A stretch of 64,000 nt of DNA from Pseudobutyrivibrio xylanivorans DSM 14809 (lineage in GTDB: Bacteria; Bacillota; Clostridia; Lachnospirales; Lachnospiraceae): contig NZ_FQYQ01000002.1 of NCBI RefSeq assembly GCF_900141825.1, positions 1 to 64,000 of the forward strand, written 5' to 3'. Shown here piece by piece: positions 44,265 to 64,000 of this stretch (positions within the stretch are counted from its first letter, which is position 1; each line of letters opens with the position of its first letter). The notes under the pieces were generated by a model. It searched no databases. It was given only the letters and a program-made list of their open reading frames with translations, and had not been told where the DNA came from. The translations under genes were made by a program, and so were the position numbers.

Positions 44265-47200
44265 ATGGCAAGAGGAAAGACATTCAAAAAGAGATTATTA
44301 TCAGTGATGATGACAATCTTGATGGTGGCCGCTATTGCCGTGCCATCATTCCCATCCTACGCAGTTGCCGACACAATTGATGTAGGCCAGCCAGGCTATA
44401 ATGCTTCTGGTGTTATGACCTATTATAACTGCTTAGGTACAGGTACAAATCTTTACAAGAGTCTTGTTATTAACTTCACATCTGTTCGAGAGAACGGTGA
44501 GAAGATAATACTTCCTAGCGTAAGTGGATTTACATATGAGACATCTCTTTCTACAGATGGTACTTATATTATTAACATCCCAGAAGGAAAGAATCTTGTA
44601 CAGATTGCAGCCTATATTAGAAAGATTCAGTTCTTGAACTGTCAGAATTCTTCCCAGAAGATTAACTTCTCAGTAGGAAAAGATATCGTTAAGTACATGA
44701 CCTTCTATTCAGAGGATTCTCAGCATTACTACCAGTTTATCAAGTTTGACAAAGCGTCAGGTACAGCTGTTAAAGATCCAACAGGAAAGTCTTGGTCATA
44801 TGGTAGTTGGGAATGGGCTTACTATACAGCTCTTAATATGACATATGAAGGACTTCAGGGATATCTTGCAACAGTATCAACTGTTGAAGAGGATGCATTC
44901 ATCTATCGATGCTCTAACGAGATTGGTTGGCTTGGTGGTACTAAGATGACCCATGGTGAAGCTGACTCTAAGAATGGTATTCCTTTCTATAAGACATTTA
45001 CACCATCCGGCAATGGTGATGGTATCGGATACTGGTACTGGGCAGTAGGTCCTGATGTAAACGAGGGTGGTGGAAAGTTCTTACAGAGCCCTACAGCTGC
45101 ATCAAATTCTGTTTTACAGACAGCTGATTCAAAAGGATACTACAACAACTGGAACAACGGTGAGCCAAACAACTCCAATGGTGAGTTTTCAATGACAACT
45201 CTTAAGATTGGTTCTGGTTGGAGCACAGGTAACAGAAATGGAAAGATTGGAACAAACTCTCCATACTATGTAGCTTCAGGCTATTCATGGAATGATATTG
45301 TTGATACTAACTGGGCTCAGTATGGTAGTTCTAAGGTTACAAGTTACACAGCTACAGGTTTCTTCGTAGAATACGGTGACTATGTAAAGGGATTAACCCA
45401 GACAGCCCTTGTTCAGAAAACAAACTTTGAGTTTAAGACAACAACTCAGCCTCTAAATCACATTTGGAACCTTTATGCAGCAGATGGTTCAGATACTATT
45501 CATATGTTCTGTTCAGCATCTGACCCTAAGTGCTCATATTATGCAGTTGGTGCATCAAGCTTAGGGGAAACTATTGATTTAACGATTCAGGCAGCGGATG
45601 TTCCTTATGATGGAAGAGCGTACTCAAGCTCTAACATTGTAGGTGCTGATGACATTATGTCTGCTACCAATAATACAGCTAACATTTCAGATATTAAGTA
45701 TTATAAGGTATCAACGGCAGATACAGTGACTGGTGGAACAATTCAGACAGCTCCACCAACTGCAATAGGCTATTACTATGCAGAGGTTACAGTAACAATT
45801 AAGAATACAGTCCTTGCTTCTAATACAGTTTCAGCTAAGGCTGTAGTACCATTTAAGATTTATGATCCTAATGCAGAATACGCAGTAGAATCATTAAATA
45901 ACAAAGCAGCAGACAAGGAGACAGTACCTTATCAGAGAAAGGTAACAGAGACAACAGCTTATGCAGATCTTGAGGTAGTTCTTGCAACAGTTGACGATAG
46001 GCTTTCAATGTATAAGCTTGCAGAAATGACATGGGATGATGAGGCAGACTCATTAAAGGATATGGAATGGGTTAGCCAGGTCAAGAACTGGATTAATCAG
46101 TCAAGCTATGCTGCAACAGCAGCTACCCCTTACGACTTGTCAAATGGTAAGGCATCATCTTCAACAATAGCATCCTTCTATAAGGATATGCTTAGAGTAG
46201 AGGGATATGATGTATTTACAACTGCAGGCGATGATCAGCTTGTAGACCTTTATGCTACGCCATCTGGACAGTACGCTTCAAAGGGTTATAAGTATGTTGA
46301 TGCTGATAATCATGAGGTTTCTGAGGGTGCTGATGGCGCCAAAGAATACTCTATGGTATTTGATAACATACAATATGGTATATACGCTATTCTTGCTACA
46401 GATGGTAATAATAATCCATATGCAGTTACAGTAGCATCAGTATATCCACAGCAGTCAGGACCACAGGGAGCTTTCTTTACACAGGAATTATTCACCGTTT
46501 ATATCAAGGAAGTTGAGCCTACTATTGAAAAGAAGATTAATGGACAGAAGCAGGATGTAGCTGAGATTAATGATACAGCTAATCCAATAGAGTTTACTAT
46601 TGATTTCCAGCTTCCACAGTATAAGGACAGATTAACTACAGGTTCTGGCAGTGGCTACCAGCTGTCATTTGAAGATTTGATGGCAGAAGGATTCACATTA
46701 TATGAACCTGATGAAGAGCACAGATTAGCATTATACTATCTGTATAAGGATGGTGAAAATCTAGCAGAAGCTAGGATTGATGAGAATAGTATTCCAGAGG
46801 CTACAGCATATAAGTTTACTGAGAATTCTCAGGGATCAAGTTCTATATTACTTACAGAGGATAATGCGAAGGATGGCACTATAGTTTACATAGCTAATCC
46901 ATCTGATAATACAATTCTTACAAAGAATTCTGATCTTATTGGATACTATGCTACACCAAGAACAGGCCCAATATTTGAGCAATTCACTATTCCTACAGGT
47001 CAGGCTACAACAAATATTTCAATTAGCTTTGACGAGCCTATAATCAGAGCATGGAAGGCTAATATAGCTAAAAATGAGGATAGAGCTGTATCAGGATTTA
47101 GAATTAGATATTATGCAATTCTTGATCAGGATGCAAAGATTAATTCTAACGAAAATACAAATACAGCTTATATTCACTACGAGAAGGATTCTAATGGTAG

Positions 47201-47888
47201 GACAATGACAGAGATGCATGACGTTGTACATGCATACACATATGGTCTTAACATTGTAAAGATTGATGGTAGTGCTTCAACTACAACTTACCTTTCAGGT
47301 GCAGAGTTTAACCTTTATAAGGAATTATCTTTATCGGATGCAGACTATGAAGCACTTGAGAGTGCAGAAAAGAATAATTACTATGTACTTCCAGGCGAAA
47401 ATGACGAAGCTTCAAGATACTTTAAGAAGGTATCAATGAACAATGGAATTTTCCAGAACAAATATAATCAAGATGTATATGACACTTTGATTTCTGTAAA
47501 TACTGAACAAGGTATTACAGCTCATGGTCTTGGTGTTGGAAGTTATGTACTTGTAGAGTCAAAGGCTCCTGCAGGCTATAACGAGCTGGCAGAGGATATC
47601 TATTTTGAGATTAATCAGCTTAATGACGGTGAAATGGCAAAGGCAGATAATTCTTATATCTGGTTCAGAGAGATGGAAACAGATGATAAGCCTTATAGCG
47701 ATACAGATCCAAATTCAGCAATTATAAATGAAAATGGATGTATCAAGGTTGATGTATACAACTATCAGGGATTAGTACTTCCTAGTACAGGTGGAATTGG
47801 TATCCTGTTATTCATCATCATTGGTACTGGTGTAATGGGTGCTGTAATCGTTATTATCTTAGGCAGAAGAAAACGTCAGATGATTTAA
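44265..47888 (+). CDS. LPXTG surface adhesin/pilin with C-type-lectin domain
   Basis: 1207 residues from the ATG at 44265 (GGAGG 7 nt upstream; the frame is open to a TTG at 44232). Signal peptide ends near AVA (35). Residues about 153-372 are a C-type-lectin-like domain: YLATVSTVEEDAFI, GWLGG, YYNNWNNGEPNN with E300-P-N, and SWNDIV with W342-N-D, ending GFFVEYG. Then follow a pilin N-domain (RLSMYKLAEMTWDDE), a segment with YIKEVEPTIEKKING, and a SpaA/Cna-B-like domain with IVKIDG and the E-box VESKAPAGYNEL. The C-terminus is LPSTGG, a membrane helix and GRRKRQMI, a sortase signal. Size and N-terminal lectin suggest the tip adhesin of the pilus. Confidence 0.9.
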   Translation: MARGKTFKKRLLSVMMTILMVAAIAVPSFPSYAVADTIDVGQPGYNASGVMTYYNCLGTGTNLYKSLVINFTSVRENGEKIILPSVSGFTYETSLSTDGTYIINIPEGKNLVQIAAYIRKIQFLNCQNSSQKINFSVGKDIVKYMTFYSEDSQHYYQFIKFDKASGTAVKDPTGKSWSYGSWEWAYYTALNMTYEGLQGYLATVSTVEEDAFIYRCSNEIGWLGGTKMTHGEADSKNGIPFYKTFTPSGNGDGIGYWYWAVGPDVNEGGGKFLQSPTAASNSVLQTADSKGYYNNWNNGEPNNSNGEFSMTTLKIGSGWSTGNRNGKIGTNSPYYVASGYSWNDIVDTNWAQYGSSKVTSYTATGFFVEYGDYVKGLTQTALVQKTNFEFKTTTQPLNHIWNLYAADGSDTIHMFCSASDPKCSYYAVGASSLGETIDLTIQAADVPYDGRAYSSSNIVGADDIMSATNNTANISDIKYYKVSTADTVTGGTIQTAPPTAIGYYYAEVTVTIKNTVLASNTVSAKAVVPFKIYDPNAEYAVESLNNKAADKETVPYQRKVTETTAYADLEVVLATVDDRLSMYKLAEMTWDDEADSLKDMEWVSQVKNWINQSSYAATAATPYDLSNGKASSSTIASFYKDMLRVEGYDVFTTAGDDQLVDLYATPSGQYASKGYKYVDADNHEVSEGADGAKEYSMVFDNIQYGIYAILATDGNNNPYAVTVASVYPQQSGPQGAFFTQELFTVYIKEVEPTIEKKINGQKQDVAEINDTANPIEFTIDFQLPQYKDRLTTGSGSGYQLSFEDLMAEGFTLYEPDEEHRLALYYLYKDGENLAEARIDENSIPEATAYKFTENSQGSSSILLTEDNAKDGTIVYIANPSDNTILTKNSDLIGYYATPRTGPIFEQFTIPTGQATTNISISFDEPIIRAWKANIAKNEDRAVSGFRIRYYAILDQDAKINSNENTNTAYIHYEKDSNGRTMTEMHDVVHAYTYGLNIVKIDGSASTTTYLSGAEFNLYKELSLSDADYEALESAEKNNYYVLPGENDEASRYFKKVSMNNGIFQNKYNQDVYDTLISVNTEQGITAHGLGVGSYVLVESKAPAGYNELAEDIYFEINQLNDGEMAKADNSYIWFREMETDDKPYSDTDPNSAIINENGCIKVDVYNYQGLVLPSTGGIGILLFIIIGTGVMGAVIVIILGRRKRQMI

Positions 47889-47900
47889 TGAATTAACCTT

Positions 47901-47940: not shown

Positions 47941-47973
47941 TACAGAAAATTACAAAGTGAATTCCGTATAAAA

Positions 47974-48007
47974 TGTAACGGCTTTGTAACACTCCTTAGA
48001 TTAAAAT
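47974..48007 (+). promoter_or_regulatory. Pilus-locus promoter/operator copy 2
   Basis: TGTAAC (47974-47979), 5 nt, TGTAAC (47985-47990), 11 nt, TAAAAT (48002-48007). Same geometry as the copies at 44156, 53314 and 57513. It is only 34 nt after the preceding terminator hairpin, so it drives the pilin gene at 48062. Confidence 0.8.
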
Positions 48008-48061
48008 GAACTCATCATAAAGATAGTAGCCTTACTAACAGGGAACAGGAAGGTGGAAAAT

Positions 48062-50284
48062 ATGAAGAGAGCAAACTCAAAAACAAGAAAAAACAGACTT
48101 ATTAGTCTCATAATTGCAATGATGTTTGTAATGTCATGTTTCCCTATGTTTATTGTACAGACATTGGCAGCAGATTTTCAGACTGATTCCCTGAATAACA
48201 GAGCAAATACCTCTGGTACTGCAGCAGCTACTACTATTAAGGTGGATAGTGAAAGTGCTACAACTAATCTTGTTGTAAAGCTTACAGCTAAGGGGGAGAC
48301 AGTTACAATTTATAAGGTGGCTGCAATTAACTATGATACAGTTACAAAGAAATATTCAGACCCTTATTGGGTACCAGCAGTTTCAAACTGGCTCAGTGCA
48401 TATGACACATATTCTACAAATGGAACTATCAAGACTGCATATGCAACTCCTAAGAATCTTTCCTCAGCAAGTCAGTCGACATGGACAGAGTTTTACAAGT
48501 ATCTTCTTTATAACAGAGATAGCAGAGGACCATTAAATGTAATTGAGTATGGCTCATCATCAGAGGAAGTAGATGGAAATACAGTTTTTTCCGGAAAGCT
48601 TGAACCATATACAGATAGTATTACACTTGCAAATGATGCAGAAACATTTGAAGTAACATTCGATAATCTTGAGCTTGGTATCTACGCTGTCATGGTAAAG
48701 GCTGACGCCAAGAGATTTACTCCTGTAGTAAAGGATCTTACTCCTAGAGTGAATGGGCCGGAGGGAAATTACTATGTAGATTCCGTATACTTTGCAGAGC
48801 TTAAGGCAGCTGATGCTACAATCGACAAAAAGCTTAATGGCAAGCAGGCTGATGCCGTAAGAATAGGTGAGGTTGTAGATTTTGATATCGATATTACATT
48901 ACCTACTTTATACAGTGACAGAATTACATACACAAGAGCAATGGATCAGATATACTCAATGTACATTGAGGATTACATGAGTCAGTCTTTCACACTTTAT
49001 GATGCAAATAATGATGGTGTTGCTGATGAAAAGGATGTAAGCTTTACAACAACAGGCTCTACGCCTGGATCTGTTAAAGAGCCGTTCCCAACATCAAACT
49101 TTGATTATTATGAGATAGCTGATTCTTCATATGATAGAAGTGGATTGACAGCAGATGTTGATTACTTTGTACTTACAGATGACAATATAGCTGACTACAC
49201 ATCAGGCTGTACACATGTATCTGATTTGGAAGGCTATGAAAACGGTCAGACTTATTATGCAATAAAGGTGTCTGCGCCGGTTTATACTCTTGATCCTGTC
49301 AGAACAAAAACTAATTCCGACAACAGAGATTGCACATATCTAAAATTAAATATTAACGTGGGTGTTTTAAAGCAGATGATTAAGGAGGATCCAGAGGGAC
49401 GAAGCTTTGATTCTGCAATTGTAACAATGTCTTACAAGGCAATCATTACAGATAATGTGGAAGTTAATTCTGAGAATAACTACAATACGGCAACAATAGT
49501 ATACGAAGGAACTTCTGGAATTAGTGATACTGTAAGAGGTTACAGCTATGGTCTTCAGGTAATAAAGGTTGATGGTGATACTGATGCTCCAATCGCAGGT
49601 GCTCAGTTTAATATTTACAAGGAAGTAAACACATACAAGAAGATAAATGATGAATATGTATGGCAGGCAGATATGAGCGGAAGTGACTCAGACAGGCTTG
49701 GGCTCACATATCAGCAGGTTAAAGAGGATATAGAAGAGAAGGAAGAGGAAAGCATTTATTATACATACGAGGAGACTAAGTCAGAATCTGGAACAACAGA
49801 AGCAGGTGTAGAGTATGATGAGGGTGATGTCCTGGCATATGTATTTACCAAATATACAGCAGGATACATTAATGGGGTGGCACAATTCAATGGCTCGCTT
49901 ACATCAGTTGCTTCAGAAGCAGGTGTTACAGTGACAGGTTTGGATGAAGGAAATTACATCCTCATGGAAACAAGAGCACCAAGTGGATACAATTCACTTG
50001 CAGAGGATATTCTCTTTACTATTAATCGTATAGATGATGAGACTGCACAGCTTGAATTTAACGGAAGCCTTTGTGGATTCTACGATGGCTACGATAATAG
50101 CAAGCAGCTTATTGAAAATGGTATTATATCACTTAGAGTATTGAACTATAAAGGTTTGACACTTCCAAGTACAGGTGGAATAGGTATTCTTCTGTTTACA
50201 GTAATAGGTATTTCTATCATGTCATCAGCGTTAGTTCTTATGGTTGTAAGACAAAGAAGAATGGATTCAAGTTCGTATATGTAA
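48062..50284 (+). CDS. LPXTG pilin subunit
   Basis: 740 residues from the ATG at 48062 (AGGAAGG 8 nt upstream). Signal peptide ends TLAA. The N-terminal pilin module reads VTIYKVAAINYDTVTKKY...YWVPAVSNWL, shared with the other surface proteins here. Next comes a segment AELKAADATIDKKLNG (the Lys of ELK aligns with the canonical pilin-motif lysine), a middle domain, a SpaA/Cna-B-like domain (QVIKVDGDTDAPIAGAQFNIY), the E-box LMETRAPSGYN, and LPSTGG plus membrane helix and basic tail. It is likely a backbone or accessory pilin, cross-linked by the sortase at 62818. Confidence 0.9.
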   Translation: MKRANSKTRKNRLISLIIAMMFVMSCFPMFIVQTLAADFQTDSLNNRANTSGTAAATTIKVDSESATTNLVVKLTAKGETVTIYKVAAINYDTVTKKYSDPYWVPAVSNWLSAYDTYSTNGTIKTAYATPKNLSSASQSTWTEFYKYLLYNRDSRGPLNVIEYGSSSEEVDGNTVFSGKLEPYTDSITLANDAETFEVTFDNLELGIYAVMVKADAKRFTPVVKDLTPRVNGPEGNYYVDSVYFAELKAADATIDKKLNGKQADAVRIGEVVDFDIDITLPTLYSDRITYTRAMDQIYSMYIEDYMSQSFTLYDANNDGVADEKDVSFTTTGSTPGSVKEPFPTSNFDYYEIADSSYDRSGLTADVDYFVLTDDNIADYTSGCTHVSDLEGYENGQTYYAIKVSAPVYTLDPVRTKTNSDNRDCTYLKLNINVGVLKQMIKEDPEGRSFDSAIVTMSYKAIITDNVEVNSENNYNTATIVYEGTSGISDTVRGYSYGLQVIKVDGDTDAPIAGAQFNIYKEVNTYKKINDEYVWQADMSGSDSDRLGLTYQQVKEDIEEKEEESIYYTYEETKSESGTTEAGVEYDEGDVLAYVFTKYTAGYINGVAQFNGSLTSVASEAGVTVTGLDEGNYILMETRAPSGYNSLAEDILFTINRIDDETAQLEFNGSLCGFYDGYDNSKQLIENGIISLRVLNYKGLTLPSTGGIGILLFTVIGISIMSSALVLMVVRQRRMDSSSYM

Positions 50285-51176: not shown

Positions 51177-52511
51177 ATGTTTCCAGGAAGTGTTGGAATC
51201 GGTGCATTGGAGTTGTGGGGTTCGTTATTTTGCCTGATAGCAGCTTTTTCAATTGACCGTGGTAAGACAGTTGAAAAGAGAGAAAACATCCAGCTGGGAT
51301 ATCTTTTGCTTATAAATACTGTTATTTTGGTTTTTGACATGTTTGCTGTTACATATAACGGCGAACCGGGAAATGTGAGCAGAGTTATTCTCAGAGTGGC
51401 TAACTTTGGACTTTTTTTCAGCCTTTATCTTTTGGAAATATACTTTTTAGCATATCTTAAGGCAGTAATTGTAAATAATGGAGGTAGCTTTTCTGTCTGG
51501 TTTAAGTATCTTGGAATACTTCTTATGGTTATTTCCATAGTAATACTTGTTTTTGATCAGTATACACACAGAATTTATTACTTTGATGAGAATAATATAT
51601 ATCATAGGGGAGAAAGCTATGTGCTGGCATTAATGCCAGTGTTTATCTGCTTTGCACTAATACTATTCATTGTGTTTTATTCTCGACATTATTTTAGCAA
51701 TCTCCAAGTTTTGGCATTGCTTATTTACCTTTCTTTTCCTGTTTGCAGTGCCATCATTATGGTGGTTACAGGTGAGGTTTCATCTATTATAAACATCTCA
51801 ATTACAATTTCGCTGATGCTTATGTATCTGTTTTATGAGATAGAAAAGAACCAGAGAATGCTAAAGCAGGCAGAAGAGTTGGTAGAGGCGGAGCGTGCAA
51901 ATAACCAGTTTAAAAACTATATGCTTTGGACTCAAATCCAGCCACATTTTATATATAACAATTTAAATGTTATTCAGTTTTTATGTAGGAAGGATCCGGA
52001 GCTTGCAGCCGAGGCAGTGGTTAATTTATCTGCCTTCCTTCGTTCATATATTGACGCCTACGATATGGATGTATGTATTCCAATATCTGAGGAGCTGGAG
52101 ATTATAAATCATTACCTGTATATGCAAAAGCTTCGCTACGGTGACAGACTGGAAGTGGAGATAGCTGTAAGCTGTGAGCATTTTAGCGTCCCACCTCTTT
52201 CTGTGGAAACACTTGTTGAGAATGCTGTACGCCACGGAGTGGCAAAGAAGACAGAAGGCGGACGAGTTTCAATTCGCGTTTACGAAGATGAAAATGAATA
52301 TCTGGCAAAGGTTGAGGATAATGGTGTAGGCTTTGATTCATCAGAGCTTGAAACTGATGATGGAAAGAATCATGTAGGACTTAAGAATACCAACAGTAGA
52401 CTTAAGTTTATGATTAATGGATACTTAGAAGTTGAGTCTCAGGTAGGACATGGCTGTAAGGCTATAGTCCATGTGCCTAAGGGTAAAAAGGATGAAGTAT
52501 CTGATAGTTGA
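51177..52511 (+). CDS. LytS/YpdA-type sensor histidine kinase
   Basis: 444 residues. Six predicted membrane helices (about 5-205) form the sensor. A coiled linker (EAERANNQFKNYM) leads to the HisKA_7TM/His_kinase family box with the phospho-acceptor His257 in QIQPHFIYNNLN, then the ATPase with N-box VETLVENAVRHGV and G-boxes EDNGVGFDSSE and HVGLKNTNSRL. It should phosphorylate the overlapping response regulator in response to an unknown envelope or external signal. It sits in the middle of the pilus locus. Confidence 0.92.
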   Translation: MFPGSVGIGALELWGSLFCLIAAFSIDRGKTVEKRENIQLGYLLLINTVILVFDMFAVTYNGEPGNVSRVILRVANFGLFFSLYLLEIYFLAYLKAVIVNNGGSFSVWFKYLGILLMVISIVILVFDQYTHRIYYFDENNIYHRGESYVLALMPVFICFALILFIVFYSRHYFSNLQVLALLIYLSFPVCSAIIMVVTGEVSSIINISITISLMLMYLFYEIEKNQRMLKQAEELVEAERANNQFKNYMLWTQIQPHFIYNNLNVIQFLCRKDPELAAEAVVNLSAFLRSYIDAYDMDVCIPISEELEIINHYLYMQKLRYGDRLEVEIAVSCEHFSVPPLSVETLVENAVRHGVAKKTEGGRVSIRVYEDENEYLAKVEDNGVGFDSSELETDDGKNHVGLKNTNSRLKFMINGYLEVESQVGHGCKAIVHVPKGKKDEVSDS

Positions 52512-53313
52512 TGATGAAAAAATCATAGTTGAGGGAATGGAAGACACCCTGAGAGAAATAGTGGGGGACAGTGCAGCTATTTACACTGCTTCTGATCCAT
52601 TTGAAGCCATTGAAATGATGAAGCTTCATCAGGTAGATATGGTGTTTTCAGATGTGGATATGCCAGGAATGAATGGTCTGAAGCTGGCGCAGTCTCTTTC
52701 CGAAGTAAATCCTGATGTGGATATAGTCTTTTGTACAGGCTATGCTCACTATAGCCTGGATGCCTGGAAGACCACAGCGAAAGCCTTTATACTTAAGCCA
52801 GTATCCAAAGAGGATATGAAGGCAGCAATCGACAGGCTAACCGCCAGCCGAAAACCGGCAGGAGTATCTGAGACTGCTGATAAAGCAGATGGGAAAGAGC
52901 TGGAGGTCATCTGTTTTGGAAACTTTGAGATTTTTCATAAGGGCGCTCCAGTTCATTTCGCCAGAAAGAAATCAAAGGAAATGGTGGCATACCTTATAGA
53001 TCGAAAAGGTGCGATGGTTTCCACCGGAGAGCTTAGAAGTGCTCTCTGGGAGGAGGAAGAGGACAACGAAGAGAAGAAGGGCTATATAAGGGTGCTTGCC
53101 AACGATATTAGAAAGAGCATGGAGGATATTGGTATTTCAAATTTCCTTCGTAACGATATGGATTGCTACAGTGTAGATATAAAGTCCATGTCCTGTGATT
53201 ACTTAAAATTTCTTGAGGGAGACGAAAAGGCAAAGAAATCTTTCGCAGATGAATACATGATGCAGTATCCATGGGCAGAGAATACACTAGGTACTCTGCT
53301 TGATATGCTGTGA
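52492..53313 (+). CDS. Response regulator with SARP/BTAD-like DNA-binding output
   Basis: 273 residues from the ATG at 52492, overlapping the kinase end by 20 nt. Receiver residues: D7/D8 in VDDEK, phospho-acceptor D54 in FSDVDMPG, Lys in FILKPV. The output region from about 137 (LEVICFGNFEIFHKGAPVHF...KSKEMVAYLIDRKGAMVSTGELRSALW) is a winged-helix of the SARP/OmpR type as found in BTAD-family regulators, rather than the LytTR usual for LytS partners. It is the natural candidate to bind the four TGTAAC direct-repeat operators in this locus. The first of these after it begins at its own stop codon. Confidence 0.85.
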   Translation: MKYLIVDDEKIIVEGMEDTLREIVGDSAAIYTASDPFEAIEMMKLHQVDMVFSDVDMPGMNGLKLAQSLSEVNPDVDIVFCTGYAHYSLDAWKTTAKAFILKPVSKEDMKAAIDRLTASRKPAGVSETADKADGKELEVICFGNFEIFHKGAPVHFARKKSKEMVAYLIDRKGAMVSTGELRSALWEEEEDNEEKKGYIRVLANDIRKSMEDIGISNFLRNDMDCYSVDIKSMSCDYLKFLEGDEKAKKSFADEYMMQYPWAENTLGTLLDML

Positions 53314-53382: not shown

Positions 53383-55488
53383 ATGGCTAAAAACAAAATG
53401 GTTCGAAGGGGCGGAATGATTTCCTTCGAAAAAGATGAAAAAAAGTCCATAATTATAGCCCTCGTGGTAAGTGCAGTTGTAGTTTTGGCTGTAGTTTTAG
53501 CGATTATTGCAATCAGACACAAAGGCTTGGGAGTACCAGTTGGTGCTACCGAGGAAGTAGTTGATACATACACTGTTACAGATAGTTACACAGAGGATGG
53601 CAGTATTATTGTAACCAATCAGGCTGAGCTTGAGGAAAAGCTCTCAGCCTCTACTCAGGATGCAACAATCGGCTCTATTACAATTCAGTCTGAAGAGGAG
53701 CAGTCTTTGGAAATTCCTGCTGGAGATTACAGTCAGTTGGCGTTAAATGTGGATGCTCCATACACTGAAGTGTCTAACTATGCCAATTTTAATACTATTA
53801 ATATTACCCAGATTTCAGCTAACACTTGGGTTGAACATGCAAGCGGTAACAATATTATTCTTCAGGCAAACACCAGCCATATAATTGTCGAAGCTGATGG
53901 TATGGTTGAAAGCATATCTAATATTTCCTATGGCTCAACTTTGGCTGTAGAAATATATGGAACTGTAAAAGAGCTTTCACTTGAGGCAGAAGAGTCCATA
54001 TCCTCTGTAAGTATAGATGGACAATTGGAAAATCTCGATATTTTTAGCAAGACAAATCTTGCTCTTTCAGGTGCAGGAGCAGAGAAAATTTCTGTAAGAG
54101 TTCAGAGTGGGGCAGATGGGTCAATCGTAAAGACATCTGTACCTGTAGATTTGACTTCAAGCGGAACAGTAGATTTATTTATGTTAGAAGGCGCTGAGAA
54201 TTCTCAGGTGACTCTTACCAGTAATGATGTATTAACTAATTTTTATAACAACACAAGTAGTGAAATCAGTATTGTTGATGCAGATAGCAATTCAGTAAGT
54301 ATTCCATCAGGTGAGACACAGTCTTTTGGTGAGATAAAGGAGCCTGAGCCAGAACCAGCTTCAGAGAACTCAGGTAGCGGCTCCGCTGTTTCATCTGGTT
54401 CGTCAGGTTCATCTGGTTCATCAGGTTCTGGTCGAAAATCTTCTGGTTCTTCACAGCAGACTACAGAACAACAAAGTACACAGACTACACCAGTACCAAC
54501 ACCGACGCCAACGCCGACAGCAACGCCAACACCAACGCCGACAGCAAAGCCAACACCAACACCAAAGTCTACACCAACGCCAACGCCAACACCAACACCA
54601 ACACCAACGCCAACACCAACGCCGACACCAACGCCGACACCAACACCAACACCTACACCAACACCGGCGACAGTGTTTGAAAATATTTCAAATAAGATTA
54701 ATGAGATTACAGATTCTCTTAAGGGTCTTACACAGCCGAAAGAAGAATATGCAAATCAGACTGGAGAAGATCCTGATAATATGACAGAACAGGAAGAGGA
54801 TATGCTGGAAAAGATTAGGGAAGCAGCTATGAATGCGATACTTTCTTTGCCTCTTCCAAGTGAAGAATATAAAAACAATGCTACTGACTACGGTTATGTT
54901 GCATATAGAATATCAAACAACGATATCATTTATTCTCGCTATGATTCGTTAAATGATAAGAATGATGAGTATATTTTGATCCATAATGCAGCCGCCAGTG
55001 GAAAATCCTATTTAGTGCAGTTGTACTATTACTATTTCATAAACGTGGATGATGGAATAGAAAGCAGACTGGAATGGAATGAGATGGGGACTTCCAAGTC
55101 AGTTGTATTAAATCCTGGAGAAAGCTGGATGTTTTATAGAGAAAAACCAGTTAATCCAGACATCGCTAAATACACCATTGAAATAGTAGCTACGAACAGT
55201 GGTGAAGCTGAGATATTAGAAGAAGATCCAAGGGTAGATATTCCGATGGGACTTGATTGGGAGCCGGAATACTCTTCGACAAACAGTGCTTTACAGGCAG
55301 TATTCTTAGATGGAAGCAGAGTAGTGGGTACAACAATTTATTATTTAAGCGATGGCGATGTTTATACAGATATGATTGTGGATAGTGATCGAGCAGTACA
55401 TGTAAATAATATAGAAGAGGAGACATATATTCAGTTTAGATTACCAATAGGTAACAGTAACGTTAAATGGTTATTCTTTGCTCAGTGA
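53383..55488 (+). CDS. Membrane-anchored surface protein with Pro-Thr wall-spanning linker
   Basis: 701 residues. Short cytoplasmic N-terminus, one membrane helix (about 23-45, uncleaved), then repetitive beta-strand-rich sequence (about 75-320, many short I-x-I-x and SI-x-VSIDG-like strands suggesting a beta-helix). A Ser/Gly stretch follows, then about 60 residues of Pro-Thr dipeptides (nt 54490-54668), ending in a C-terminal folded domain of about 260 residues. The Pro-Thr arm probably crosses the peptidoglycan. It has no sorting signal, unlike its neighbours, so it is anchored from the N-terminus. Function unknown; it is co-transcribed with the LPATG protein 12 nt downstream and may be a pilus base or assembly factor. 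Confidence 0.75.
54490..54668 (+). repeat. Tandem ACCAACNCC-type repeats encoding Pro-Thr
   Basis: Six-base units of the form CCNACN repeat about 30 times, encoding alternating Pro and Thr with two short interruptions (Thr-Ala and Ala-Lys). Such repeats change length easily by slippage in steps of two residues, so linker length may vary between strains without shifting the frame. Confidence 0.9.
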
Positions 55489-55500: not shown

Positions 55501-57474
55501 ATGAAAAAAAGGATGAAGGCATTGCTGGTGGTTTTTACAATAATACTTTCAATGCTTAGGGGGACAACTTCATATGCTGCAGCCACATCAAGCATAATCT
55601 TTCAAGGACTGGAGGTAAAAGATGTGGTGGAGATTTATCGTATCTGTAATTACGATGAATCATCTGCCAGCTATTCCTGGGCTTTTGCAGTAACTTCATG
55701 GATGTCTGAAAAAAGAACGGGACAATTCTATGCAGATTTAAGTCCGGCAGGGCTTTCAAAAATGAAGCCGAAGGCTGCAAAGGAGTTCTGTGAATTGCTC
55801 TTGGATGGACTGAGAAACACTTCTACAGGAGTAGCTAATTTACAGGGCGAGTCCTTTACCTATGAGGTGGGTGGTGGAAATACAGTTGAGATAGAAGCAG
55901 GATATTATATCGTCCTGCCTAAGGGCCATAGCCGAGTATACGACTTGGAATGGTTTGTATTACCACCGGGTTCTGAAAAAACAATTACCTATACAGAGGA
56001 TAATTACAGTGTTCCATCCATGACTACTTCAATCGCAAATGATACTAGCGATAGAGGAATGGTTCAGGAGACGGTTCCACTGACAGAGCTGGATGATCAG
56101 GTTACTGTAACATCAAATATTACAATGCCATCCTATAACAGTATGTATTCAGATGGTAAAAGAGTACTTACAGTGTCATTTGTTATACCTTATGGAATGG
56201 AGTATATAGCTGACAGTTTGAAGCTTACTACAACAGAAGAGGGGCAGGAAACAGAACTTCCAGAAGCTGCTTACACGGTAATGAATTACAGTAATGCCCA
56301 GTTCTATAAGGATTATAGTGACAAATTTGTTTTCTTTGGTTCTCAGGATTATTTTTACGAGATAGATGGAAATCATTTGGCGGGACCAGACGGCACACCT
56401 GAGCTTGCATTAACAGCTTTTAATGAAGCTTATGGTACTCAGTACAGTATTGAGGAGAAAGGCTTAAAGACTGTAGGTGTGGGAGGAAACACATCAACTC
56501 AGGAGATAAGAGAAGCTCAGGCTGCGGAGACAGGTGAGCCAGTTGAAGCATTGGAAGAAACAGAAAATGAGGATGGCAGCGAAGAAGTCTCAGATGAGTC
56601 AGAGAATTTAGATGACGAACAGACTGATCCAGAAGGAGTGACTGTAGAGACAGAGTCTATAGGTGATACATCTGTGGATACCTCTAATCTTGTATATAAG
56701 ACAGGTGGAGTATCCCTTGTGATTGTTTCACTTGATACATCAGTAGAGATTGGTACCTTAAATGCGAAAATCAGTGCCAAGAAGAATCAGTACAGCACAC
56801 CTGATGGATGGTATGACATTTACACATGTCTAAGCTATTCAGTCAGCCCACTTGATAAGAATCTCAGAGCTGTGATTAAGGAGTCTGCACGAGCGGCAGC
56901 CTATGGAATCAGACTCACAGCCTGCATGGGATATGCAGATTCATATCAGAAGACTGGCGATGAGATTTTAGCAACAGCTCCTAGAATGCTTGACGACAAA
57001 TTTACTCTTTATAAAAAGACTAACACCTATTCAGGTGACATTAATGAAGCTGTTACGCAGGTTGCAACAGAGAATAAGGATAAAGTTCAGCTGGTCTATG
57101 ATTCGGCTTTGAATGTAACTAATGAATATACAGAATATGCACTGCTTAGTTTGAACGACGAAGCGCAGATAGCTATTGGTGGCATTATCACCGGAGAATA
57201 TCTGATAATGCAGACAGACCATGTTCCAGGATTCGCCCTTTCAGAGTATTCCTACATAATAGAGTCGGATGACTGGCAGGATGAGGAATATATGGAAGGA
57301 AATTGCGTATTTGATCTGGTCTGGTTGGATTACAAGACGGTTTATCTTCCTGCCACTGGTGACAGTGGGCAAGAAACAGGACGTGCAGCAGGAATTCTGA
57401 TTATGCTGTTTGCAGCAGCGGCCATAGTACAGGTGGCTAGAAAGCAAAGAAATCTTGTGATTTTTCGCCGATAA
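55501..57474 (+). CDS. LPATG-anchored pilin-like protein
   Basis: 657 residues. Signal peptide ends TSYA (about 26). The N-terminal module (VVEIYRICNYDESSASYSWAFAVTSWM) is homologous to that of the other pilins here. A highly acidic stretch lies near 345-395, and the C-terminus is VYLPATGDSG, a membrane helix and RKQRNLVIFRR. Unlike the others it has LPATG rather than LPSTGG, no recognisable xLK-KKING pilin-lysine segment and no clear E-box, which suits a minor terminal or basal subunit. It shares an operon with the Pro-Thr-linker protein (12 nt gap, AAAGG before the ATG). Confidence 0.85.
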   Translation: MKKRMKALLVVFTIILSMLRGTTSYAAATSSIIFQGLEVKDVVEIYRICNYDESSASYSWAFAVTSWMSEKRTGQFYADLSPAGLSKMKPKAAKEFCELLLDGLRNTSTGVANLQGESFTYEVGGGNTVEIEAGYYIVLPKGHSRVYDLEWFVLPPGSEKTITYTEDNYSVPSMTTSIANDTSDRGMVQETVPLTELDDQVTVTSNITMPSYNSMYSDGKRVLTVSFVIPYGMEYIADSLKLTTTEEGQETELPEAAYTVMNYSNAQFYKDYSDKFVFFGSQDYFYEIDGNHLAGPDGTPELALTAFNEAYGTQYSIEEKGLKTVGVGGNTSTQEIREAQAAETGEPVEALEETENEDGSEEVSDESENLDDEQTDPEGVTVETESIGDTSVDTSNLVYKTGGVSLVIVSLDTSVEIGTLNAKISAKKNQYSTPDGWYDIYTCLSYSVSPLDKNLRAVIKESARAAAYGIRLTACMGYADSYQKTGDEILATAPRMLDDKFTLYKKTNTYSGDINEAVTQVATENKDKVQLVYDSALNVTNEYTEYALLSLNDEAQIAIGGIITGEYLIMQTDHVPGFALSEYSYIIESDDWQDEEYMEGNCVFDLVWLDYKTVYLPATGDSGQETGRAAGILIMLFAAAAIVQVARKQRNLVIFRR

Positions 57475-57512
57475 CAGGGTGTTACAAAAATAAATATAAA
57501 AAAGATTTTCTT

Positions 57513-57546
57513 TGTAACTAGTTTGTAACTAGTAACGGTTTATTAT
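57513..57546 (+). promoter_or_regulatory. Pilus-locus promoter/operator copy 4
   Basis: TGTAAC (57513-57518), 5 nt, TGTAAC (57524-57529), 11 nt, TATTAT (57541-57546). A partial third repeat AGTAAC follows at 57531-57536. It serves the twin pilin gene at 57605. Confidence 0.8.
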
Positions 57547-57604
57547 ATGGCATATAGAAGAGAATTCTATGCGATATACTACGTCAGATAAGGAGGAAAA
57601 AATC

Positions 57605-60600
57605 ATGAAAGGAAAAGGAAAGCGATTAGCCGCATTACTAACACTTATAGTTCTTACTTTCAGTTCAGTATTGGTTGTTAGCGCTGAAAGCAGCAATACA
57701 AAACTGATTCAGAGAAGTACTAGTGTAAGCAATCAGGAATTCGATCATACTGAGGTTTCTGTTGCTGAGAATACACCAGATAGAACTGGATTTACTCTCA
57801 ATGTAAAGAGAGCAGATGACAGCTTTACTCTGTATAATCTGGTGAATATCGTTGCTTCAACACCTGATGAGGCAAGCGGAATTACATCCATTGACGTTCA
57901 GTGGATTACTCCAGTTGCAGAATTCATCCGTACACATGAGCAGTTTTCTGGTGATGCAGATTACGCTTCTCCTATAGCACTAGGGTCTTATACAATAGAC
58001 CAGTCCCTTTCAGGCGAAGCTAAGGAAAATGCAGAGAAGGCAGCCAAGGCAGCAAAGGAAAAGAAGCTTATTGCTCTTATCAATGCTATGAAGTCAGATT
58101 ATGAAATCGTAGTTGATAAGAATGCTACAGCTCTTGGTCAGATGACAGCTGTTGCTCACGTTGATGGTTCAGCAGTGGAGTCTACAATTGCTAGTAACCC
58201 ATCTGCTAATCTCAATGATACACCTGGCTCAGAAGTAGTAATCGGACTTTCTGGAGCAGCTTATGAAATCAGCAAGTTAAAGTTTGGTTTGTATTTTGTA
58301 GATGCTTCAAACCCAGCCAGAGCTTCAGGTGGTGGATATCAGCCTGTAGTAGTAGAGCTTATCCCAGAACAGACAGGTCCTTCAGGTCATTGGTATATCG
58401 ATAATCATAAAACAGCAACACTTAAGAATGAATCAATCAATATCGGAAAGAAGATTAATGGATCTGATAGCGATATTATCAGAGAAGGTGAGATTGTTAC
58501 ATTTAACGTAGATATTGACATTCCTCTTTATACAAAGACTGGCAATACATTTGATTTCACAAAGTTCTGCGCATTTGATGATATGTCACAGGGCTTCACT
58601 CTTATAGCAACATCAGCTACACTTACATATTTTGATGCTCAGGGAAGAGAGTACCATCCGGTGGCAGCACTTGTAGGTGATAACTATGGAAATAAGACCG
58701 CACGCGACACAAACGGAACTTATGAAGCAAAGCTTATTGGATACAGCTACCCTGTATATTATAGTGGTGAAGAGAATCAGAAGGCATATTTCTATGTAAC
58801 AGAAGATTCTCCAACAGCAATTACTGTATGGGTTAACAATGGTGGTAAGCTTAATTCCATTCCATTTACAAAGAGTAGATCTAATGGAAAATATACATTT
58901 AACACTAATGATTTAATAGCTATTAACAACCAGCTTGGATCAGACAATCAGATTCCAAGTGCATATATTACTTCATCAAATGCACCAAAGTTTACTCTTT
59001 CTGATACAACAAAGTCTCTTATCGCTGTAGAGTTCAATTATGAGACTCTTATGAATGAAGAGACATATGTACATATGGTTGATTCAGCCAGCTATATTCA
59101 GGATGAGGAATTTACATACCCTAATAAGGTAACTGTAAAATATGATGCTTTAGTAAATGATTCAGCATACTTAGGTAATAACGACAATACAAATACAGTA
59201 ACAGCTTATTACATTGAGGATACATCAGGAACAACTGGTGAGGTTTCAGATGAGGTAGTTGCCTGGACATACGGTGCAAACATCGTAAAGGTAGACGGTG
59301 AAGCTTATTCAGATTTTGAGAAGCTTTCAGATGAGCAAAAGGCAGCTCAGATTGCAGAAGGTAAAGCACCTTATTTGGAGGGCGCAGTATTTGATATCTA
59401 TAGATTAGATACAACATACTGTGGTGGCGCTGCAAATGCTGATAAGAATACAGCTCCAGTAGAAAGAGCATACAATACATTCGCTTTCTATGATGATTCA
59501 ACATATCCTGTTACATCAGTTGATAGCGCTAATGTCACAACAAGATACACAGAGTCATTTAGACAATATGCAGAAGTATTACAGAAGGCTATGAAGTATG
59601 AGATGACTCAGAAAATGGCCCTTACAGATGCAACAGTTATAGGCGGTGCAATCCAATCTGCAATTGGACAGATGACAGCATATACTACAGCTGACCAGTT
59701 TACAAATAAGTATAATTTTGCAAATGCTTATGAAAACGTAGAAACAATCAAGAGATTACATGACGAATTTAGTGGAAATATTCTTCTTGACTACATGATT
59801 CCAAAGGCACAGACACTTGACAATGGAAAGAAATGGGATGTAGCAGAAGATTTCGAAAGTGGATTCGTAGTATTTGTACCTAGATGGGTAGAAGCAAATG
59901 AATGTGCTATTCATTCAGGAGCACATTGGCACTTGGATGCATACTCATTATTCTGGGCAGATACAACATCAGTTGCTGATGGTGATGGTGTCCTCTTAAC
60001 AGGATTTGATCCAAATCAGTATCTCATGATTGAGAAGACTGCACCAGCAGGTGGATATAACAAGTTAAGTACAGCAATTTACTTTGAGGTAAATCAGATT
60101 TCTGACGAGCTCTATACAGAAAGAGGTAATTCTTACGCTAGCTTCCTTTCAGATGAGTATGAGAACGCAGTTGGAGAAAAGATAGTTGATGATAACTTAG
60201 ATGGTATTTATCACTTTATTATCAAGAACTACAGTGGACTTACACTTCCAAGTACTGGTGGTATGGGTACATTATTATTCACATTGATAGGTTTGATTAT
60301 TATGGGTGGAGCAATTGTATTTGTAATTGCAAGAAGAAAGAAGTTAGCTAGAAATGCAGCGTCATTTATGGCAATAGCTTTGATGATTTTATCACTCCTT
60401 GTTCCTTCAATGAATGCAAATGCAGCTACAACAATCAGCCTTGGAAACAGTGAGGGAATTAGCACAGGTGCACAGAAAGCTACACCTAATGGAACAGCAG
60501 AATTTATTATTCATCTTAGAGATGCACATGACACACTTTCAGTATATCGAATTGCATCTGTAAGTTATGATGATACAACAATGACCTGGAGTGATTTGGA

Positions 60601-62746
60601 ATGGGTTCCAAACCTTTACAGTTACTTAGGAAATTACTCACTTGATACAGGTAATGATAACATTCCTACAACTCCACAGCAGTTTACAGAGTTAAATGCA
60701 AAAGAGCAGGCAGATTTCCTTACATGGGTTTATGATACAAAAGATAAGTCTGGAATAGGAGCAACATATAAGGTTAATGACCAGTATATAAGCAAGTTTG
60801 ATAACAAGACAACTAATGAGAATTATGCAAAGATTACAAACGTTGCCTATGGAATGTACCTAATCAAGGGTGAAAATAAGGAAATAGGAAGATCATACTC
60901 AGTACTTACACTTTCAGCAGTTCCAGAGATTCAGGGACCTATGGGCGTATATTATCTTACAGGTGATCTGGAAGCTACACTTAAGTATGCTGACGTTACA
61001 GTAGATAAGCGCATCAATCAGATGAACTCTGATGTAGTTAGAACAGGAGAAACTGTAAGCTTCGAAATCGCAGGTGAAATTCCTAGCTACTATCCAATCA
61101 ATGGCGGTGTTGTATACACCAAGGAAGATGGAGATTTATACACTGGATATGATTGGAATGCAAATTACAAGTTTAATATTACTGATGATATGTCATCAGC
61201 ATTCACACTTGATCCAAGTACAATAGAGATTTATTTAGGTAATTCTCTTACAGAGGATGGTTGGGTAGCTCCACCAGCAAATTCTTATATAAGCCTCATT
61301 GCATCTCCATATTCAGCTGAGGCAGGAGAAGGAGTTGTTTGGTTTAAGGACAGCACAGATAAGAACGGTTATTACATTATCAAGCACATTAAGAAGAATG
61401 GTAGTGTTTATAATCTTACCTGGTATATTTATAACGAAAAAGAAGGAAGCATTGAAGTATTAACAACTGGTACAGCTAGTTCAGAGGCTAATGCTACAGG
61501 ACTTCCAGATGCATCTATTACCAGTGCTTACAAGACTGCAACAGATATTCAGTCTGTAGGAACAATAGCAAGAGCTACCAATAAGAACATTTTTGCTATT
61601 TCCTTTGACTATTCAAAGCTTGTACATATTAATGACGAAGGTAAGTGGGAACAGATTTATAAGTACATTGGTCTTACATACAAGGCTACAGTTACAGAGG
61701 ATTGCGAACCTGGTTCACAGGACAACACAAATACAGTTCACCTCTGGTATAGAAGTGATATCGCAGGACATTATAGTTCAGTAGATGACACAGTAAGAGC
61801 CTACACATATGGAATGAGAATTGTAAAGACTGATGGAGAATCAAATCCTACTAAGTACCTTATCGGTGCACAGTTCAATCTCTACAAGGAAGCATTTGTA
61901 TATGTTCCTGATTTGACACTTGCAGGTGGTGATGAGTCTATAGTTACAGCAGAGCCTTCAAGCTCTAATTGGCAGTACTATAAGTTTGGAAGATATGCAG
62001 AAAATGGTGAGTATTCATCAATGACTGCTGAGATTCCTACAGATGACAGCGAGACTCCTGTAGTGCTCGATACACTTGATAAGCTTGAGGCACAGGGTAC
62101 TACATTTGCAGGTGGACTTAATACTTACTTCAGATATGTTCCAGTTCCAGCAGGAACAGATGGCATTGACGCTGAGCACTACAATGTAATCGTTTATAAG
62201 CAGATGGCACTTGCAGACCAGTTTGGAACAAATGCAGCAGGTCAGGAGTACCAGACAGTAAAAGAAAATACAATTTATTCAATTGATACAGAAGAAGGTG
62301 TTTTAATCGACGGATTAGAGGATGCTTCATATGTATTAATCGAGACAGTATCTCCTACAGGTTACAACGCTCTTACAGAGGCAATGAGATTTGAAATTAG
62401 CAAGATTACTAATGAGATGCGTGAGTTAACAGAAAACTCAGCTTATGACACAGATGTTATTTTCTACTCAGCTAATGAAGTTAATCCTGCAGAGGAAGGT
62501 ATTGTAGATGCAGTTGCATTAGAAGTTACTGAGAATGAAGGAACAGAAAACGAAACAACAGTAGTTAAGTATTATCAGGGATACTCAGATGGTATTTATG
62601 GAATCAATGTAAAGAACTATCAGGGACTTACACTTCCAAGTACTGGTGGTATTGGTACATTATTATTCACAATCATCGGTATCATTATCATGGCAGCAGT
62701 AATTATCGTAATACTAGCCAAGAGAAAGAAAAATAGTTATATGTAG
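57605..62746 (+). CDS. Twin pilin polyprotein: two complete LPXTG pilins in one reading frame
   Basis: 1713 residues from the ATG at 57605 (AAGGAGGAAA upstream; open to 57569). First unit: signal peptide ending near VSAE, pilin module (FTLYNLVNIV), TLKNESINIGKKING, SpaA-like domain (NIVKVDGEAY), E-box MIEKTAPAGGYN, then LPSTGG at 881-886 with a membrane helix and RRKK. Without a stop the frame continues into a second hydrophobic segment (about 918-936) ending NANA at 940, a signal-peptidase site. Second unit, 941-1713: SVYRIASVSYDDTTMTW, TLKYADVTVDKRINQ, RIVKTDGES, E-box LIETVSPTGYN, LPSTGG at 1677-1682, membrane helix, RKKNSYM. Each unit is a full-length pilin; signal peptidase plus sortase could release both in equal amounts. 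Confidence 0.88.
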   Translation: MKGKGKRLAALLTLIVLTFSSVLVVSAESSNTKLIQRSTSVSNQEFDHTEVSVAENTPDRTGFTLNVKRADDSFTLYNLVNIVASTPDEASGITSIDVQWITPVAEFIRTHEQFSGDADYASPIALGSYTIDQSLSGEAKENAEKAAKAAKEKKLIALINAMKSDYEIVVDKNATALGQMTAVAHVDGSAVESTIASNPSANLNDTPGSEVVIGLSGAAYEISKLKFGLYFVDASNPARASGGGYQPVVVELIPEQTGPSGHWYIDNHKTATLKNESINIGKKINGSDSDIIREGEIVTFNVDIDIPLYTKTGNTFDFTKFCAFDDMSQGFTLIATSATLTYFDAQGREYHPVAALVGDNYGNKTARDTNGTYEAKLIGYSYPVYYSGEENQKAYFYVTEDSPTAITVWVNNGGKLNSIPFTKSRSNGKYTFNTNDLIAINNQLGSDNQIPSAYITSSNAPKFTLSDTTKSLIAVEFNYETLMNEETYVHMVDSASYIQDEEFTYPNKVTVKYDALVNDSAYLGNNDNTNTVTAYYIEDTSGTTGEVSDEVVAWTYGANIVKVDGEAYSDFEKLSDEQKAAQIAEGKAPYLEGAVFDIYRLDTTYCGGAANADKNTAPVERAYNTFAFYDDSTYPVTSVDSANVTTRYTESFRQYAEVLQKAMKYEMTQKMALTDATVIGGAIQSAIGQMTAYTTADQFTNKYNFANAYENVETIKRLHDEFSGNILLDYMIPKAQTLDNGKKWDVAEDFESGFVVFVPRWVEANECAIHSGAHWHLDAYSLFWADTTSVADGDGVLLTGFDPNQYLMIEKTAPAGGYNKLSTAIYFEVNQISDELYTERGNSYASFLSDEYENAVGEKIVDDNLDGIYHFIIKNYSGLTLPSTGGMGTLLFTLIGLIIMGGAIVFVIARRKKLARNAASFMAIALMILSLLVPSMNANAATTISLGNSEGISTGAQKATPNGTAEFIIHLRDAHDTLSVYRIASVSYDDTTMTWSDLEWVPNLYSYLGNYSLDTGNDNIPTTPQQFTELNAKEQADFLTWVYDTKDKSGIGATYKVNDQYISKFDNKTTNENYAKITNVAYGMYLIKGENKEIGRSYSVLTLSAVPEIQGPMGVYYLTGDLEATLKYADVTVDKRINQMNSDVVRTGETVSFEIAGEIPSYYPINGGVVYTKEDGDLYTGYDWNANYKFNITDDMSSAFTLDPSTIEIYLGNSLTEDGWVAPPANSYISLIASPYSAEAGEGVVWFKDSTDKNGYYIIKHIKKNGSVYNLTWYIYNEKEGSIEVLTTGTASSEANATGLPDASITSAYKTATDIQSVGTIARATNKNIFAISFDYSKLVHINDEGKWEQIYKYIGLTYKATVTEDCEPGSQDNTNTVHLWYRSDIAGHYSSVDDTVRAYTYGMRIVKTDGESNPTKYLIGAQFNLYKEAFVYVPDLTLAGGDESIVTAEPSSSNWQYYKFGRYAENGEYSSMTAEIPTDDSETPVVLDTLDKLEAQGTTFAGGLNTYFRYVPVPAGTDGIDAEHYNVIVYKQMALADQFGTNAAGQEYQTVKENTIYSIDTEEGVLIDGLEDASYVLIETVSPTGYNALTEAMRFEISKITNEMRELTENSAYDTDVIFYSANEVNPAEEGIVDAVALEVTENEGTENETTVVKYYQGYSDGIYGINVKNYQGLTLPSTGGIGTLLFTIIGIIIMAAVIIVILAKRKKNSYM
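60245..60427 (+). other. Internal sorting signal followed by an internal signal peptide
   Basis: This junction inside the twin pilin gene encodes LPSTGG, a membrane helix, RRKKLARN, a second hydrophobic helix and the cleavage-type end PSMNANA. The charge pattern predicts out-in-out topology: the RRKKLAR loop in the cytoplasm, pilin units on either side outside. An ATG lies inside (the Met of SFMAIAL) but has no ribosome binding site in front, so independent initiation looks unlikely. Confidence 0.8.
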
Positions 62747-62767
62747 TTTCTGACTTAAACAAAAAAT

Positions 62768-62807
62768 GGGCAGGAGGCAGTTAACTGCCTTCTGCCTGTT
62801 TACTTTT
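62768..62807 (+). terminator. Terminator-like hairpin between twin pilin and sortase genes
   Basis: Stem GGCAGGAGGCAGTT/AACTGCCTTCTGCC, self-complementary, followed by TGTTTACTTTT. No promoter is evident before the sortase 10 nt later, so it may attenuate rather than block transcription, lowering sortase relative to pilin. Confidence 0.75.
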
Positions 62808-62817
62808 GAGGGATGGC

Positions 62818-64000
62818 ATGGGTGTTCAAAGGAAATTCAATTACATGAATTTACTTTTAATCCTAGTTTTCGTAGTGGGACTAGGAATACTTTTGTATCC
62901 CAATATTTCTGATTTTTTTAACCAAAAGAACAGTTCGAAATCAATTAATGAATATGACGAAACAGTAGCTCAGATGAATGAGGAAACCAGACAGGTACTG
63001 TTTAAAGAAACGGAAAGCTATAACACCACACTTTTATCTAATCCGGTAGGTCGTTTTGCAGACATGACCGAGGAGATGAAGGATGATTATTATGGCACTT
63101 TGGATATAGATGGAAGTGGCATGATGTGTTATTTGAAAATAGATAAGCTGGGATTAAATCTCCCGGTATACCATGGAACCACAGAGGACGTACTACAAAA
63201 ATATGTAGGACATATAGAAGGAACTTCGCTTCCAATAGGTGGACAAGGAACTCATTGTGGTCTTTCTGGTCATAGAGGATTACCAAGTGCGGTTCTTTTT
63301 ACAAACTTAGACAGAATGGAAGTGGGAGATGTTTTCTCTATCATAGTTTTAGGTGAGGAACATTTTTATCAGATAGATCAGATAGTAACAGTTCTACCAA
63401 ATGATTTATCACCTTTGGCAATTGATCCCGAAATGGATTACTGTACGTTAGTTACATGTACTCCTTATGGTGAGAACACTCATCGTCTTATGATACGAGG
63501 AGCCAGAATAGAGGACGAAGAGGCCGAGGAAATAATTGATAATACCGAGTCAGCGACTCTGAAATACGGACTTACCCGAGAGCAGGTGGTAAATGCTATA
63601 GCAGCAGTTATGGGAACTGTATTCATGTTCGTGGCAGTGCCAATTCTACTTTTCCCACCTGTTCCAACACCTAAGGCATATATAAGACCTTGGGATGACA
63701 ACATCGAAGAGGTATGTAAAGCTGCTATTAAGGTTTCCGAGATGGCCACTAGAGCAAACTGGGAAATGGATAGCGTTACCCATGAGGCAGACACTTTTGC
63801 AAAGAGGCGAAGATGGGACGATACATTAAAATATGCCGATAAGCTTACAGAGGATGACTTGGAAAGACCTTGGGATGATTATGATTTCTATGATGAATCT
63901 GTAGATTACAGTGAGGAAGAGGAAGTAAGACTCTGGGATGACAAGGTACTTGAAAAGGTTGATCAGGACTGGTCAGTATTTGACAGAGATAAGAATCAGC
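62818..64000 (+). CDS. Class C (pilus) sortase with long WDD-repeat tail, 3' end outside window
   Basis: 394 residues visible from the ATG at 62818 (GAGGG 5 nt upstream; the ATG at 62813 runs into a stop). TM1 near 11-27. Catalytic domain: YHGTTEDVLQKYVGHIEGTS, catalytic His in CGLSGHRGLPSAVLFTNLD, nucleophile Cys and Arg in LVTCTPYGENTHRLMIRG. These phrases mark class C sortases, which polymerise pilins by isopeptide bonds. The usual DP(W/F) lid is not recognised; NPVGRFADM occupies that region. TM2 near 258-280. The tail after TM2 is over 110 residues, acidic, with four WDD motifs (RPWDDN, RRWDDT, RPWDDY, RLWDDK), which ordinary class C sortases lack. No stop is reached by 64000. Confidence 0.88.
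   Translation, partial: MGVQRKFNYMNLLLILVFVVGLGILLYPNISDFFNQKNSSKSINEYDETVAQMNEETRQVLFKETESYNTTLLSNPVGRFADMTEEMKDDYYGTLDIDGSGMMCYLKIDKLGLNLPVYHGTTEDVLQKYVGHIEGTSLPIGGQGTHCGLSGHRGLPSAVLFTNLDRMEVGDVFSIIVLGEEHFYQIDQIVTVLPNDLSPLAIDPEMDYCTLVTCTPYGENTHRLMIRGARIEDEEAEEIIDNTESATLKYGLTREQVVNAIAAVMGTVFMFVAVPILLFPPVPTPKAYIRPWDDNIEEVCKAAIKVSEMATRANWEMDSVTHEADTFAKRRRWDDTLKYADKLTEDDLERPWDDYDFYDESVDYSEEEEVRLWDDKVLEKVDQDWSVFDRDKNQ

Follow-up and report, generated by a model that had tools for sequence, protein, structure and literature searches.

Shaft pilins of the SpaA/RrgB/BcpA type, such as Clostridium perfringens CppA and Streptococcus sanguinis PilA, are to our knowledge all single-subunit precursors. 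The Bradyrhizobium cytochrome b/c1 precursor (fbcH) is reportedly a bacterial polyprotein in which signal peptidase cleaves behind an internal signal peptide and so frees the second part. We analyzed a 64,000-nucleotide stretch of the genome of Pseudobutyrivibrio xylanivorans DSM 14809 (Lachnospiraceae; assembly GCF_900141825.1, contig NZ_FQYQ01000002.1, positions 1 to 64,000; genome label G000), here called the window, in which a single gene encodes two pilin-like proteins in tandem. Like the shaft pilins, the two halves have a signal peptide, a sorting signal, candidate Lys, Asn, and Glu residues, pilin-like fold matches, and an adjoining class C sortase. They differ in that two subunits share one chain and in that the candidate lysine stands in TLK[NY] rather than in YPKN. 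As in fbcH, the second part of a probable polyprotein follows a predicted internal signal peptide, but the proteins are unrelated, and fbcH involves no sortase and contributes to a respiratory complex rather than a surface fiber. The two-pilin precursor is a variant of sortase-pilus subunits and not a new kind of system. No description of a fused pilin was found in the literature covered, which excluded most subscription journals, or in the passages of PMC3297441 examined.

The fused gene lies in an open reading frame (ORF) at 57569-62746 on the + strand. The best-supported start is ATG57605, which gives a single frame of 1,713 amino acids at 57605-62746; the start-site duplex energy in the window is -11.1 kcal/mol for this codon and -2.9 kcal/mol for ATG57569. 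AGGAGG stands at the usual spacing before ATG57605 and its counterparts in all seven sequences of the gene found in the genus (-11.1 to -11.7 kcal/mol). The encoded parts are, in order, signal peptide 1, pilin 1, an LPSTGG-helix-RRKK sorting signal, signal peptide 2 ending in A-N-A, pilin 2, and an LPSTGG-helix-KRKK sorting signal. The first LPSTGG occupies residues 881 to 886 and is followed by a hydrophobic segment, RRKK (910 to 913), a second hydrophobic segment, NANA (937 to 940), and ATTISLG; the second LPSTGG is at residues 1677 to 1682, and the protein ends in KRKKNSYM. A first-pass annotation of this DNA had described a complete sorting signal running in an unbroken frame into a signal-peptide-like segment (NANA) and a second pilin, and the ORF, alignment, and hydropathy confirmed this, with the coordinates and residue numbers (Thr884, cut after residue 940) being right as well. 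The two halves are paralogues, with 25% identity over a 471-column alignment (E = 6e-23). The features of the gene are as follows.

57605..62746, + strand: fused two-pilin gene, 1,713 amino acids in one frame (ORF, genus search, and alignment)
57590..57604, + strand: ribosome binding region (AAGGAGG) in front of ATG57605 (duplex energy, 7/7 sequences)
57605..57685, + strand: predicted signal peptide 1, residues 1 to 27 (hydropathy and charge; cut site placed by eye)
57686..60256, + strand: predicted mature pilin 1, residues 28 to 884 (C. perfringens CppA and S. sanguinis PilA matched by Foldseek; low-confidence model)
58424..58426, + strand: Lys274, candidate pilin-motif lysine of pilin 1 (invariant in 7/7; shared column in six aligned pilin sequences)
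60245..60262, + strand: sorting motif 1, LPSTGG, residues 881 to 886 (invariant in 7/7; PF00746, 28.8 bits, cutoff of 20)
60278..60328, + strand: predicted sorting-signal membrane helix 1 (hydropathy)
60332..60343, + strand: basic tail RRKK, which opens the predicted inside loop of the junction (sequence and hydropathy)
60344..60424, + strand: remaining loop and predicted internal signal peptide 2, residues 914 to 940, ending in A-N-A (Ala or Ser at -3 and Ala at -1 in 7/7)
60425..62644, + strand: predicted mature pilin 2, residues 941 to 1680 (SpaA domain, 25.7 bits, cutoff of 23.1; fold matches, low-confidence model)
60983..60985, + strand: Lys1127, candidate pilin-motif lysine of pilin 2 (invariant in 6/6; shared column in six aligned pilin sequences)
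62633..62650, + strand: sorting motif 2, LPSTGG, residues 1677 to 1682 (PF00746, 32.2 bits, cutoff of 20)

The fusion is conserved in the members of the genus that were found to hold the gene. A search of 29 Pseudobutyrivibrio genomes at a threshold of E ≤ 1e-10 gave matches in 8. The full fused frame without a stop (residues 1 to 1711 or 1 to 1713) was present in six, namely, the window's own genome and G020, G001, G025, G004, and G024, and the latter five are 64 to 87% identical to the window protein. The match in G013 covers residues 1 to 949, with the junction between the two pilins in frame; the contig ends roughly 10 codons beyond the cut site, which leaves pilin 2 unseen. G028 holds a distant pilin only. 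Protein identity among the seven fused sequences ranges from 57.6 to 98.2%, with G004 and G025 being near duplicates. The first-pass annotation had named relatives that always carry two separate pilin genes as one case that would overturn its claim; separate halves were seen in none of the 29 genomes, and the junction is in frame in all seven carriers.

The junction is also constrained as protein. Synonymous and nonsynonymous differences per site (pS/pN) were computed jointly over the loop and signal peptide 2 for five pairs, a short stretch of 27 to 28 codons and without a significance test. The values were 0.574/0.015 for G000 and its nearest relative, G020, 0.324/0.031 for G004/G025, 0.460/0.097 for G025/G024, and 0.404/0.113 for G004/G024. 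The G000/G001 pair was far less clear (0.587/0.374), as a drifting signal peptide would give. All insertions and deletions in the junction are multiples of three. Over the 165 to 168 nucleotides of the junction the coding frame has no stops in any of the seven sequences, and the other two forward frames have 7 to 11 and 1 to 4. One of the three reverse frames is equally free of stops in all seven, and the openness of the junction alone is therefore weak evidence.

By hydropathy, a signal peptide and a sorting helix are followed by another such pair in the six full sequences, and the first three of these four segments are seen in the contig-cut G013. In all seven sequences, sorting helix 1 and the core of signal peptide 2 are about 9 to 12 residues apart, and the 12 residues after the helix include 4 or 5 basic and no acidic ones. 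This spacing and the basic loop fit a helix that runs from outside to inside, a loop on the inner side, and a signal peptide that leads out again. The predicted cut site of signal peptide 2 has Ala at -1 and Ala or Ser at -3 throughout, and AATTISLG, which spans the cut, is unchanged (7/7), while the hydrophobic core differs in both sequence and length. Processing by signal peptidase would be expected to leave such a pattern, although the pattern is no proof of it. Both sorting signals score above the cutoffs of the Pfam and NCBIfam anchor models, and each half has an N-terminal Sec-type signal peptide by pattern (hydropathy, charge, and small residues at -3 and -1), the second one being internal. 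The topology proposed in the first-pass annotation, two outside pilins joined by a short inside loop, is thus supported by conserved hydropathy, the sorting signals, and a signal-peptidase-type site.

Pilins were the first fold matches of both halves, although the models are of low confidence (mean predicted local distance difference test scores of 48 to 51). Fold matches with a root mean square deviation above 10 Å mix domain placements, and we relied on the single-domain matches, available for pilin 2 only (deviations of 2.5 to 3 over about 130 to 140 residues). With this low confidence, both halves appear to resemble sortase pilins by fold. A SpaA domain scores above its cutoff in pilin 2 only, and the cutoff of 95 bits for NF033902 (SpaH/EbpB major pilin) was not reached by pilin 1 (52.2), pilin 2 (47.6), or the whole chain (77.9). 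Candidate isopeptide Lys, Asn, and Glu columns were seen in a single alignment of six pilin sequences. The literal YPKN pilin motif is absent from both halves, and the same alignment has one invariant Lys column at the matching place. Neither half matched the sequences of solved structures at E = 0.01.

We consider it likely that the gene encodes a two-pilin polyprotein that is cut by signal peptidase and sortase. Signal peptide 1 would export pilin 1, the sorting signal of which would halt in the membrane and leave the basic RRKK loop on the inner side. The second hydrophobic segment would then act as an internal signal peptide, reentering the translocon and exporting pilin 2, whose own sorting signal would again be held in the membrane. 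Cleavage by signal peptidase after A-N-A would free the N terminus of pilin 2, and the adjoining class C sortase would cut both LPST/GG sites and link the subunits to form a pilus. That the chain is cleaved, that the halves are supplied equally, and that they are assembled together is inferred from established sortase and signal peptidase biology, as are side-by-side delivery to one sortase and the presence of both halves in the same fiber. One precursor implies 1:1 synthesis but does not fix the ratio of incorporation into the pilus. Because each half has a sorting signal as well as a candidate lysine for linkage, and one precursor would supply a single copy of each to the same sortase, a heteropolymer could be imagined in which the pilins alternate along the shaft or are mixed in a fixed proportion. 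The polyprotein would then be a stoichiometry device for a covalent pilus. We regard this extension as rather doubtful.

Beyond the genus, a full-protein profile run on 299 family genomes at E = 1e-15 found only the window's genome. A junction profile (A2) gave stop-free matches over the whole junction in 2 of 397 family genomes (G000 and G128), 1 of 391 class genomes (G000), and 1 of 398 phylum genomes (G000), in each case among the matches listed; these samples overlap, include few fused relatives, and comprise at most 15 candidates per genome, and the profile is biased toward the seven sequences that make it up. The first-pass annotation had proposed a check of Lachnospiraceae for proteins with two LPXTG anchors. 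An LPXTG-anchor profile gave two anchors in one open frame in at least 3 of 120 genomes (G000, G033, and G128), and a closer look at the frames of G033 and G128 confirmed this. Among 42 other genomes chosen for anchor-like matches, none had two anchors per frame among the matches listed; the rows of the anchor profile were compared by eye, and the counts are lower bounds. Phage records gave no match. The two frames outside Pseudobutyrivibrio are listed below.

L085:2-8263, + strand: fused frame of G128, a genome of another Lachnospiraceae genus, which has two sorting signals plus an internal signal peptide (one genome of that genus covered)
L084:4281-8747, - strand: fused frame of G033, a genome of another Lachnospiraceae genus, which has two sorting signals plus an internal signal peptide (one genome of that genus covered)

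Like the window gene, both combine an internal signal peptide with two sorting signals in a single frame, but, judged by size and domains, their first part is larger or resembles an adhesin, and a possible internal start is preceded by a ribosome site. The first part in G128 exceeds 2,100 amino acids, its N terminus being unseen, and is followed by a tight KKCRK loop and a pilin; G033 has a longer loop, and its assembly is marked as 6% contaminated. The frames may be independent fusions, and their second pilin may start separately because of the internal ATG with its ribosome site. A speculative path is that frames fuse first and the inner start is lost later, with Pseudobutyrivibrio as the end state.

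Translation of pilin 2 could, additionally or for the most part, begin at a separate start within the junction, and the fusion would then matter little; this seems improbable to us. In-frame start codons do occur in the junction of all seven sequences, and in the fused frames of G128 and G033 the internal ATG has a fair ribosome site (-6.9 and -9.0 kcal/mol); the background was computed for the window only (1,500 random places; mean, -2.1 kcal/mol; best-5% mark, -6.6 kcal/mol). In Pseudobutyrivibrio, however, the ATG before the hydrophobic core of signal peptide 2 has no ribosome site in any of the seven sequences (+0.2, 0.0, -1.0, +0.7, +0.7, +0.7, and -2.4 kcal/mol). A start there would deprive the signal peptide of its basic end, and the stretch upstream of this ATG falls in the region under protein constraint, for which loop and signal peptide were computed jointly. 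Two weaker start candidates inside sorting helix 1 count against translation as a single chain. The scan found no terminator-like site on the + strand inside the fused gene, and the 15 promoter-like sites at 57400-62900 on both strands, compared to 19.5 in shuffled sequences, speak neither for nor against an inner promoter.

It is about as unlikely that the chain is exported and stays uncut at the internal signal peptide, with the pilins tethered by a membrane hairpin. The sorting helix, basic loop, and second helix would make a plausible stable hairpin, but the small -3 residue and the Ala at -1 are kept in all seven sequences despite varying and gapped neighbors, and pilin 1 has the same LPSTGG in every sequence, as sortase cutting would predict. 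An assembly error or a recent loss of a stop codon can be practically dismissed; nothing was found in its favor, with the agreement among assemblies taking the place of raw reads. A lone lost stop or assembly slip is excluded because the full fused frame is present in the window's genome and five others, and the same junction occurs in seven genome records at 58 to 98% protein identity, with mostly synonymous change between close relatives. The public record NZ_FNDP01000001.1 carries the junction too and was counted with G020, not as an eighth case. The cleaved two-pilin precursor is the reading that we retain.

The fused gene is part of a larger pilus locus, for which the following neighbors were compared.

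62806..64000, + strand: class C sortase, the next gene, which continues beyond the window end (NF033745, 242.9 bits, cutoff of 160)
55501..57474, + strand: upstream protein with an LPATG sorting signal, separate gene (motif scan; no family match)
44265..47888, + strand: large putative tip-type pilin, separate gene, for comparison (role suggested by size)
48062..50284, + strand: pilin, separate gene preceded by a terminator-like hairpin, for comparison (scans and hairpin search)

The order is tip-type pilin, pilin, charged coiled-coil-like protein, sensor kinase and regulator (by eye), 701-amino-acid protein, LPATG protein, fused gene, class C sortase, protein with a C-terminal sortase domain, kinase, 204-amino-acid protein, and GH25 lysozyme. 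ORFs of like size and order are found in G020, G001, G004, and G024; this comparison rests on size and order, with a domain scan only for one downstream pilin of G001. The tip-type pilin and the pilin after it are parted by stops in all six genomes compared (G000, G020, G001, G004, G024, and G013); G025 was left out because its pair is split over two contigs. A fusion of this upstream pair in three relatives had been considered and was rejected on these stops. Because the upstream pair stays separate, the fusion is a trait of one pilin pair and not of the locus. Between the upstream pilin genes lies a 15-bp terminator-like hairpin (window 47888-48062); a hairpin with a T run was seen by eye at the same place in five relatives and may set the expression ratio of the tip-type pilin to the pilin. 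The N-terminal part of the tip-type pilin (window 44265-47885), at residues of about 180 to 380, looks C-type-lectin-like by eye but has no Pfam match in support.

The 701-amino-acid protein (window 53383-55488) has an N-terminal hydrophobic segment, a long Thr-Pro repeat, and no Pfam match, and a similar-sized ORF stands at its place in relatives. Just beyond the window end, L037:1144-4263 (+ strand) encodes 1,039 amino acids with a sortase domain only at the C terminus (residues 922 to 1033), far under the class C sortase cutoff, and a long region with Cys-rich repeats (by eye). Histidine kinases flank the pilus genes at window 51177-53313 (kinase and regulator by eye) and at L037:4247-5554 (Pfam), which suggests dedicated two-component control.

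If the two-pilin precursor is processed as proposed, one annotated pilin gene may give two pilins, which is a warning for annotation. The proposal makes testable a second signal peptide that follows a sorting signal in one chain and the action of sortase on a substrate tied to the next subunit. It would mean that Gram-positive bacteria can fix subunit supply by gene fusion, with secretion enzymes serving as the processing proteases.
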